From Styela clava (Eukaryota; Chordata; Ascidiacea; Stolidobranchia; Styelidae): a stretch of DNA of 64,000 nt. Positions 59,801 through 62,773 of the stretch are shown piece after piece; within the stretch, counting starts at the first letter, position 1; the number at the start of each line of letters is the position of its first letter. The stretch is from the NCBI RefSeq assembly GCF_964204865.1, contig NC_135254.1, positions 16,373,001-16,437,000 of the forward strand, read 5' to 3'. The notes below the pieces were generated by a model. The model ran no database searches. It was not told the DNA's origin and saw only the letters and a program-made list of their open reading frames with translations. Both the position numbers and the translations under genes were made by a program.

Positions 59801-62773
59801 AAATCAATTCTGATGAAACTGTTTCCTGGTCTGGATAATCGTAAAATCCATATAACGTCCCACTTTGCAAAATAGTTTGATTGACTCCAACTTTCCTACT
59901 TGAAGGGCTGATCATATGTAACTAAAATAAAAATCATTTGAAACATCATATACTGTTTCCCAAGTTTACACGTTACATACATCACACTAACATGTGACAG
60001 ACAGTTGTCAGTTCGATGGCCACACTTTGTTAACGGTCAGGGTAATTATGACGTGAAAACATCGAAGATTATTTGAACTCACATCTTTGTAGCCGGATTG
60101 GTAAGCACGCAAAGAACATAAAATCAGTATCTCATTCAAATAAAGATCAGAAAATTATAATGAGTGTAAACGGGATTTGAAGTCATGATTTTGTGTATTC
60201 GTTTTCAATACTAACGTTTAATTGCACAATATCTCATTACGACATGTTCATGTTTAAACGTGAATTAAATACAATTTTTGTGATTTTGTCTATAAGTATT
60301 GAATAACCTGAGCACTTTCTGCCCCCGCGCCTTGTCCAAATATTGTCATTCTTTCTGAATCTCCACCAAACGCTTCTATGTTATCAGCAACCCACTGCAT
60401 TGCAAGATTTTGATCCCATAATCCGTAATTACCTGGTGAAAATCGATTGCCCGTACTCATGAATCCAATAGCACCTAACCTGTCAAAAATTGAAGATGTT
60501 TTTTGTAAAATGAAATACGGTTATTGGAACTATTAAAATTTTGTATCACCAGATGGCGACTGGAATGAGTATTTGGGCATTACAATACCGTCGGAAAAAG
60601 CTGAGTGAAAAGAAACTCAACAAAGGGGCATGTTTTGAAAAAAGAACTAAAAAAAACACCGACAAACGTATCAAGACGAGTAGAACATATAATATATGCG
60701 CTTATGCAAATAGAAAAAATCTGATTCTGCATTGACTTTTACTAAAATTCCAGTCTCCAGCTAGATCAGAGTTCCAACTTCAAATAATGAGTATTTTATC
60801 AATCGCCCATCATCAATAAAGTAGGCCTACTGGGGTGAAGTTCATTTTTTATCAATTATTTGAAAGATGCTACATGCTCTAATTATGGCAATTTTATTTC
60901 AATGTCTTGCCGTACCTGTAATTCATTGTAACCACAATTACTTGTTCAGATGTGGCTAAAACATCTCCCATATAACTTTCCATCCCATCTCCTGTCATAT
61001 ACCCACCACCATGTAACCATATCATAACAGCGTATTTTTTCGGAATGACTTGGTCGTACGGTTCTGTCTGAAATAGAAGTTTATCAGTTTGTTCTTTAGG
61101 TTTGACGGGGCCAAATCGATTCAATTTAACTACTGCGCCATTTAAGCATCATTATTTTTCAACATTGATACGCCCAATTCTTACCGAATTAATGGGAACA
61201 TATACATTCATGTACAAGCAATCTTCACTCATAGTTAAAGCATCATATGGAGATTGCGGACACGATTTTTGGAAAGTAGTCATCGACCTGAAAAAGATTG
61301 TTCGCATTTTACATACTTTAAAATCCGGGTCTGTCGCAAGAAAAACCATCTTTGCAAAGCGGAATTATAAACACTTTTATGCCAAAATGTAATTGTTGCA
61401 TGATTCAAATGTATTCATGTTACCTTAAATCAATGAACTTTAGGTATATATAATATATATACCCATATAAATTCAAACTCATTCGCCAAATTACTTGATT
61501 TTTATTTTTACGTTTTAACGTTAACTCTTTCTATCTTCTGGATTAATTACATACAAATGAGTACCCACACAATAGAAATCATATTTTGTAATAACATAAC
61601 TTGCCTCGTTCCTGTCCAGGGCGTTGGTTCTGTAGGTTTCTCAAATCTTTCTGATCCAACCGGCGGTATTGCGTATGGGATGCCAAGAAACCTTGAGTAC
61701 AACATTCCGTTGGTTTTTCCCATTTCACCTCGAATGCATCCATAACTGAAAACATTGTACCGTGGGATAATAAAAACGATTTATATATATATAAATTATA
61801 CTTCTGCAATATATATATATACTCATTTACGCATAGCCTACCTTGTAGCTCTAATAAAATCCCCTGTTCCTTCGCATACGCTGCCTTCACGACTGCTGAT
61901 TGTTTTTGGGAAACTTTTTAGTTTTAGGAAGTCATCCTCATCGGGTTGGTCTAATTTGAACTTGGGGCGATTGAGAGCGGTTTCTGCCCCCAAAACATTG
62001 AGTGATTTTGTGCGAGAATACTGGTTGTTTGCAACCGATTCGCAAATTCCACTTTTTGAACCATATATTTGAGGTACCATACGACTCCAGAATACGGAAA
62101 AATCTCTCCGGAAAGAATATCCAACTGCATTGTTGCCACTGTCTTCTAAACTTGTGTTTAGTTCAAGATAATGCCTCGTATTGTAATCGTAGACTGGCCA
62201 ATAAGCCGGAGGAGCATCTTTCGCACCCTCGTTTGGATTTCTGAAAATAGGAATTAATAGAATTGAGTAAATAACTATTATTAAGCTTCCAACTACACGG
62301 CTTCAATGTTTTCTTTCAATTTTTATTGAATTTTATTCCAATGGGAATCCCATGGGATGGGACAGACATAATGGCTATGAGATGGACAAGCAAAAATATG
62401 TCCCATGTACAAGCTTGGCAATATCACAAGCAATATAATATCAATGGCCTGCCATTGCAGGCCCCCATATTTTCCATTGCTGCTGCAGTAACGCCAGGAT
62501 ATGGACGTTACAGTAACGTTGGTTAACTTCTAAAATTGGCTTGCTTACCCTGTCCGAGCAAAGTTTGTCCAATATGTTATGATTGAATTGGCAAGTTTCT
62601 GTTCTGCTCTGCTGTATCTGAGTCCCGCTCGATTGGGTACATCAAAAACATATTGTACTTCCTCTCCGTGTTCTGCGCCATCCAATTTACCATCGAATTC
62701 TCCGTTCAGTAGCGTTCGGGTTTTGGGTTCGGAGAAAAGGTAAACAAACGTTTTTGCTCCCGTGCCCTGGTTT
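56847..62773 (-). CDS. Multi-domain cholinesterase-like protein: C-terminal domain complete, end of a preceding domain (5' end outside window)
   Basis: Two upstream exons (62549-62773, 61842-62240) encode the end of one esterase domain: [26 protein letters not shown] with the His, and [13 protein letters not shown] to a WP-Y and FW end. A linker of about 70 residues follows, then the next exon (61596-61745) opens a second domain: [25 protein letters not shown]. The phases join exactly (ACA AG|T TAT), and reading through the donor would give an immediate stop. The second domain continues in 61185-61287, 60916-61067, 60308-60479, 59763-59921, 58883-59054, 58264-58439, 57997-58159, 57466-57601, 56847-57039 (stop). 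It has both disulphide pairs, HGGG, Asp and His, but FGQGAG in place of GxSxG, so the C-terminal domain should be catalytically dead. No membrane helix at the C-terminus. Two separate genes are less likely, because the second domain would lack a start and signal. Confidence 0.82.

Follow-up and report, generated by a model that had tools for sequence, protein, structure and literature searches.

Two esterase domains on one predicted polypeptide in the ascidian Styela clava and their relation to modelled four-domain paralogues

The window, by which we mean the whole stretch of 64,000 nucleotides analysed here (C5:16373001-16437000 of the Styela clava genome), contains on its minus strand part of a predicted esterase gene. 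A reading of the letters alone, made without database searches (the sequence-only reading), had proposed a look at the upstream sequence, and when the next 39 kb of the genome were added to the window, they supplied the rest of the first esterase domain (domain 1) together with a signal peptide. The gene model obtained in this way comprises 21 exons, extends from position 71523 to position 56847 of the extended window (C5:16444523-16429847) and encodes, in one open frame, 1183 aa in the predicted order signal peptide, domain 1, 73-aa linker, domain 2 and stop. Nineteen of its 20 introns are of the GT-AG type and one is GC-AG. If the signal exon is set aside, the remaining 20 exons are open over 1160 aa, with 59 and 60 stops in the other two frames. 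Pfam recognizes two stretches of the COesterase family (PF00135) in the 1183-aa protein with a score of 853.7 bits (curated cut-off 27 bits), and with E values up to 1 the matches are restricted to families of the esterase/hydrolase type. The signal peptide MFLRISIFGLVLCSLATVKSEQ, located in exon 71570-71457, was recognized by eye and by hydropathy, and from its presence we infer that the protein is secreted. In a simple hydropathy scan it was also the top 19-residue window (1.75, followed by 1.11), and no membrane helix was detected; the modelled protein contains no stalk either. A candidate exon between the signal peptide and domain 1 (about 71330-71200, minus strand; two cysteines, PIYPECRDGYDTQKYLDAGASKKQCRS) is compatible in phase on its 5’ side, but it had no Pfam match and was excluded from the model. 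Further upstream of the gene, an exon resembling Kazal-type inhibitors was seen at 73899-74018 of the extended window (minus strand, Pfam E 1.3e-5).

The transition between the two domains involves exons 10 to 12. Exon 10 (62549-62773; this and all following exons are on the minus strand) belongs to domain 1, which resembles bile-salt-activated lipase, and holds the His of the catalytic triad; its acceptor was placed at 62773 instead of 62766, in agreement with the phase of the upstream exon. Exon 11 (61842-62240) encodes the end of domain 1 and the 73-aa linker and ends with ACA AG. It is separated by the junction intron (61746-61841, 96 nt) from exon 12 (61605-61745), the first exon of domain 2, which has the GC-AG donor AACGAG/GCAAGT at 61605. 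Domain 2 continues in exon 13 (61185-61287), exon 14 (60916-61067, with the oxyanion-hole motif HGGG), exon 15 (60308-60479, with the nucleophile elbow GQGAG, in which the catalytic Ser is replaced by Gly), exon 16 (59763-59921), exon 17 (58883-59054), exon 18 (58264-58439, with Asp at the acid position, NSGDGT), exon 19 (57997-58159), exon 20 (57466-57601, with the His position retained) and exon 21 (56847-57039), which contains the end of domain 2 and the stop codon. The donor of exon 15 (CAG/gttatt) is the weakest of the 20 and is shared by the two truncated copies of the gene described below.

At the junction, exon 62240-61842 ends with AGA GCT ACA AG followed by gtaggctatg, and exon 61745-61605 is preceded by tgttttcag and opens with T TAT GGA. 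Joining 61842 to 61745 is in phase and yields FIRAT-S-YGCIRG in a single frame. The 12 exons modelled first begin within the end of domain 1 and reach to the stop at 56847; over them this frame is open for 727 residues, and the two other frames contain 33 and 36 stops. Without splicing, exon 62240-61842 runs immediately into a stop (ACA AGG TAG). The exon borders at the junction, the matching phases and the unspliced stop were thus as the sequence-only reading had described them, and its central claim, that two esterase domains are joined in one polypeptide, gains from the completeness of the upstream domain with its own signal peptide and from paralogues that have no intron at this point. The donor at 61842 has a leave-one-out score of 5.3; the acceptor at 61745 scores only 1.75 and is the third lowest among the 21 acceptors of the gene. 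One detail had to be corrected. The downstream exon had been ended at 61596 (CAA/GTTATG); this end was rejected, because it breaks the frame of the next exon, and the GC-AG donor at 61605 matches the spacing of other family members when compared by eye with the relatives of domain 2.

The linker consists of 73 codons without a stop (chance approximately 0.01 at the stop rate of introns) and contains two cysteines. Among 1481 intron windows of the same length, four were free of stops and none reached the coding score of the linker. One antisense frame is also stop-free, but its coding score is 2.0 compared to 7.2 for the linker itself. No Pfam match was found in the linker, and no other match to its exon was found in the genome at E values up to 1 (a first look had given two candidates). 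When three introns of the window gene (62548-62241, 61841-61746 and 65416-62774) were scanned crudely and without a positive control, no signal-peptide exon for domain 2 was seen.

The two domains differ in their closest relatives. The best relative of domain 1 with a solved structure is bile-salt-activated lipase (carboxyl ester lipase, CEL; 2bce, 1aql), with 330.6 bits for 2bce against 268.5 bits for the best acetylcholinesterase. The alignment covers residues 14-560 of 566, and as in CEL the Ser, Asp and His positions are present, the catalytic letters being kept as GQSTGG, NNMDGH and EHGEEV. Bile-salt activation and lipase activity of domain 1 are putative. Mammalian CEL ends in a C-terminal repeat tail; in its place the gene described here has a second esterase domain. 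The best relatives of domain 2 are a cholinesterase (271.7 bits) and neuroligin-2 (267.3 bits). Its Asp and His positions are kept, but Asp or His at a catalytic position is no proof of activity, and since the elbow GQGAG lacks the Ser, domain 2 should be dead as a serine esterase. The aligned neuroligin-2 chain also reads GxGxG at this site and shares the loss of the nucleophile. However, neuroligins have one esterase domain and the protein predicted here has two, and it lacks a helix and cytoplasmic tail of the neuroligin type. Proteins of the Carboxylesterase family (PF00135) usually contain one such domain, and to our knowledge proteins with the cholinesterase fold occur as single enzymes or as single dead adhesion domains. 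Here we found two domains in the window gene and four in a paralogue on C5. In the open-access literature searched, outside of which most subscription papers lie, we found no description of a multi-esterase protein.

For the genomic context, 376.6 Mb in 379 contigs were searched. One exon matched glycoside hydrolase 6 (E 1.5e-6), in weak support of a tunicate origin, as the cellulose synthase of tunicates contains a domain of this kind; a search for COX1 was negative. The search for COesterase domains gave at least 95 matches, a lower bound since 84 of 311 candidates were scored. Eight esterase clusters were taken, and the comparison of the fusion leaves out C10, C4, C13, C8 and C18:8984001. 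At two loci, C5:23662602-23688654 and C1:25668523-25701477, four esterase domains were found in series on the minus strand. They were modelled with a purpose-written protein-to-genome spliced aligner, using the two domains of the window gene as queries; as a check, this aligner reproduced the exons of domain 2 of the window gene except for 2 nt at the first start and the stop codon. It returned four near-complete domains at each locus, and the inter-domain joins were chosen by hand from lists of splice sites scored for strength and phase. The predicted C5 paralogue has 2360 aa and 37 exons, with two GC-AG introns, and the C1 paralogue 2342 aa and 39 exons, each in one open frame. Some internal exons of these models may be wrong, above all in the first domain of the C1 model (exons of 13 and 48 nt). 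The donor GCAAGT is used repeatedly by GC-AG introns of these esterase genes (window 61605, C5:23682993 and C5:23677155); among all introns they make up one of 20 for the window gene, two of 36 for the C5 model and none of 38 for the C1 model.

The four-domain models share the order signal peptide, esterase domains alpha, beta, gamma and delta, stalk, one membrane helix and short tail. Pfam, applied to the C5 protein, recognized four COesterase stretches with 1582.8 bits. Both models begin with a signal-peptide-like N-terminus and contain near their end a helix-like stretch with a hydropathy of 2.72 (C5) and 3.11 (C1), the next values after the N-terminus being 1.46 and 1.42. The two models agree in the position of the join between alpha and beta (ELPLYGEGEGLD and ELPLFGQGKGLN, each followed by D), which has the top score of seven and of five phase-compatible pairs, respectively. 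The exon encoding the membrane helix and tail was detected at five loci with E < 1e-4, namely C5, C1 (twice), C18:16029253 and C16:19570078; a sixth candidate with E 0.38 was left uncounted, and no match of this search fell in the window region. Two of the five loci were modelled fully and four tails were read, excluding the second C1 copy; from the C18 locus, the end of delta and the tail were taken. The tails end with SSL (C5) or SAL (C1, C16 and C18), endings compatible with a putative PDZ ligand of class I. In their ectodomain, stalk, single helix and short tail ending in S-S/A-L the four-domain paralogues are likewise similar to neuroligins. The locus C16:19558064-19570302 is also four-domain-like, beginning with what resembles a signal peptide and ending with a membrane tail. 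Two of its esterase domains, given as second and third and also as the last two, have the changed elbows GDDDS and GDGFG.

The paralogues provide the strongest evidence for the fusion. The counterparts of the junction, at the join between beta and gamma, are read through in one open frame, uninterrupted by any intron, on C1 (CPPDPLIRATESGCVQGYE), C5 (CPNQQLIRSTTSGCVEGYE) and C16 (CDLSEDYVRNTTYGCVRGV). They follow a conserved motif consisting of Cys, 4-7 residues and then [hydrophobic][I/V]R-x-T-x-x-G-C-[I/V]-x-G, and a scan of regions comprising 601,964 codons found the unspliced pattern in these three junction exons only. The second C1 copy contains 47 contiguous codons across the junction point with 89% match. 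The 96-nt intron of the window gene interrupts this motif and is absent from the C1, C5 and C16 paralogues; since it occurs at the junction in the window gene alone, the join depends on its splicing there. When the beta-gamma parts of the C1 and C5 proteins were used as queries in spliced alignment, both of the two runs returned 61842/61745. The models behind these queries had in turn been built with the two domains of the window gene as a starting point, and both runs also inserted a false intron within the long linker, recovering the ends of exon 11 and not its middle, so that they support the junction and not the whole linker. Taken together, the sequence evidence supports reading the window gene as one polypeptide with two domains.

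In a tree of 17 domain rows, domain 1 groups with the beta domains (96/97) and domain 2 with the gamma domains (99/100). The row C16_d0 was omitted as a fragment, and the other C16 rows are long-branched and unsure in their placement. Since the order beta-then-gamma is shared by the window gene and the paralogues, the fusion probably predates the split of these genes, and the architecture of the paralogues together with the tree places the window gene, with its two domains and predicted secretion, in a multi-esterase family. By these predictions it is the two-domain, anchor-less form, and its domains correspond to beta and gamma. A complication is that the gamma elbow keeps its Ser in C5 (QSTGG) and C1 (NSAGG), so that the loss of the nucleophile in domain 2 is specific to the window gene; the delta elbow has lost the nucleophile Ser in both paralogues (GQGSG). 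Two features go beyond the sequence-only reading, namely the loss of the catalytic Ser in domain 2 and the membership of the tandem gene in a family with up to four domains.

The region 5656-61447 of the window is a tandem segmental triplication with units of approximately 21-25 kb, which are 90-99% alike and show mosaic identities. The unit, the domains of which were scanned in one copy, carries VWA exons, cytochrome P450 exons, a single-exon ORF of 389 aa and a truncated esterase. The ORF (41704-42885, minus strand; 389 aa counted from the first Met) has several hydrophobic stretches by eye and no Pfam match at E 0.01; from the triplication alignment, a second copy is expected near 16784-17965. 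The truncated esterases, copy A (11212-15668) and copy B (35779-40229), both on the minus strand, correspond to exons 13-21 only: their nine domain 2 exons are 96-99.5% alike, open without early stop and with splice dinucleotides kept, and neither domain 1 nor the initial exon of domain 2 is present in them. The likeness of both copies to the full copy stops at one common break point opposite 61447. Between copy A and the full copy, 10 of 21 changes are nonsynonymous (15.9 expected, P 0.005), and between the full copy and the other truncated copy 11 of 23, again fewer than expected (P 0.004); the comparison of A with B is a weak test (5 of 10, P 0.07). These counts suggest that domain 2 is under constraint, which we list among the support for the fused gene. 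Two copies of a 2.1-kb element, 91-94% alike, are present in introns of the window gene, at 62940-65008 and 68296-70467 of the extended window. The element has perfect 17-bp terminal inverted repeats (TAGGCTTGCACGTAATT) and looks like a non-autonomous DNA transposon.

With this in mind we considered whether the fusion could be an accident in a decaying or chimeric locus, the three copies in the window being debris of segmental duplication. The absence of domain 1 and of the first domain 2 exon from copies A and B, with their common break point, and the two inverted-repeat elements within introns of the full gene would be in line with such a history. However, the full copy is open across 21 exons, its nonsynonymous changes against A or B are below the neutral expectation, and the same domain order in the four-domain genes implies that the fusion is older than the duplications in the window. 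We regard decay as the least probable of the alternatives. Hardly more probable is a tunicate-type operon of two genes, in which the upstream product would end with FIRATR at the stop (61838) and the downstream mRNA would be trans-spliced to a leader at 61745. According to PMC7986045, a single spliced leader resolves operons in Ciona and Oikopleura, and genes in predicted Ciona operons are tightly spaced, with a median of 1 bp between genes in one run. With 92 nt from the stop to the acceptor, the distance would suit an operon whose 3’ end is short, and the spacing is not decisive. An exact search with a 16-mer of the Ciona leader gave two matches, compared to one for the reversed control, and so no signal either way. 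Against an operon, no intron interrupts the corresponding residues at this point in three paralogues, and the upstream frame continues for 73 coding-like codons past domain 1. In addition, the first residue of the downstream product would be the Met that lies in frame in GEMGKTNG, and this product would have no signal peptide, although domain 2 carries the cysteines of secreted esterases, which presumably pair as they do there.

A third alternative, which we consider unlikely but less so than the other two, is that both forms are made. If the 96-nt intron were alternatively retained, a secreted one-domain lipase ending with FIRATR would arise beside the spliced two-domain protein, and the shortness of the intron, its weak acceptor and the stop in its first codons are compatible with this. 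On the other hand, constitutive splicing is common even for introns that are short and have weak sites. Very probably, the junction lies inside one fused two-domain gene of 21 exons, which is a member of a multi-esterase family.

How such a fused protein may work is more tentative. As the most likely mechanism we propose, at somewhat less than even confidence and by analogy, that a live domain 1 acts together with a dead partner, domain 2. Domain 1 would hydrolyse esters outside the cell and catalysis would be due to this domain only; domain 2 would serve as a built-in partner for binding or dimerisation, comparable to the dead domains of neuroligins and thyroglobulin. In thyroglobulin the cholinesterase-like (ChEL) domain is also C-terminal in a secreted protein. 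It is preceded there by Tg1 repeats, none of which was found by Pfam in the window protein, where the partner is a second esterase. A role in dimerisation and transport has been reported for the ChEL domain (PMC3464141, PMC5943944). Cholinesterases and neuroligins dimerise via a four-helix bundle. A chain that carries two esterase folds might form a similar pair within the molecule.

Considering the whole family, one may speculate with still more caution about lineage-specific polyesterases, in which four-domain membrane receptors are accompanied by a secreted beta-gamma protein as soluble partner or decoy. The same degree of doubt applies to the receptor side of this idea, which would fit the C5 and C1 models, where the first three domains are predicted to keep the Ser nucleophile, the last is dead and the S-x-L tail resembles a PDZ ligand. 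If this is true, the proteins of this family would unite the hydrolysis of esters with recognition at the cell surface in a single polypeptide. A live and a dead copy in one polypeptide, together with four-copy paralogues, would show how catalytic and adhesive roles have been combined and split within one family, and the window protein would represent a natural covalent “dimer” for probing the effect of a dead domain on a live one.
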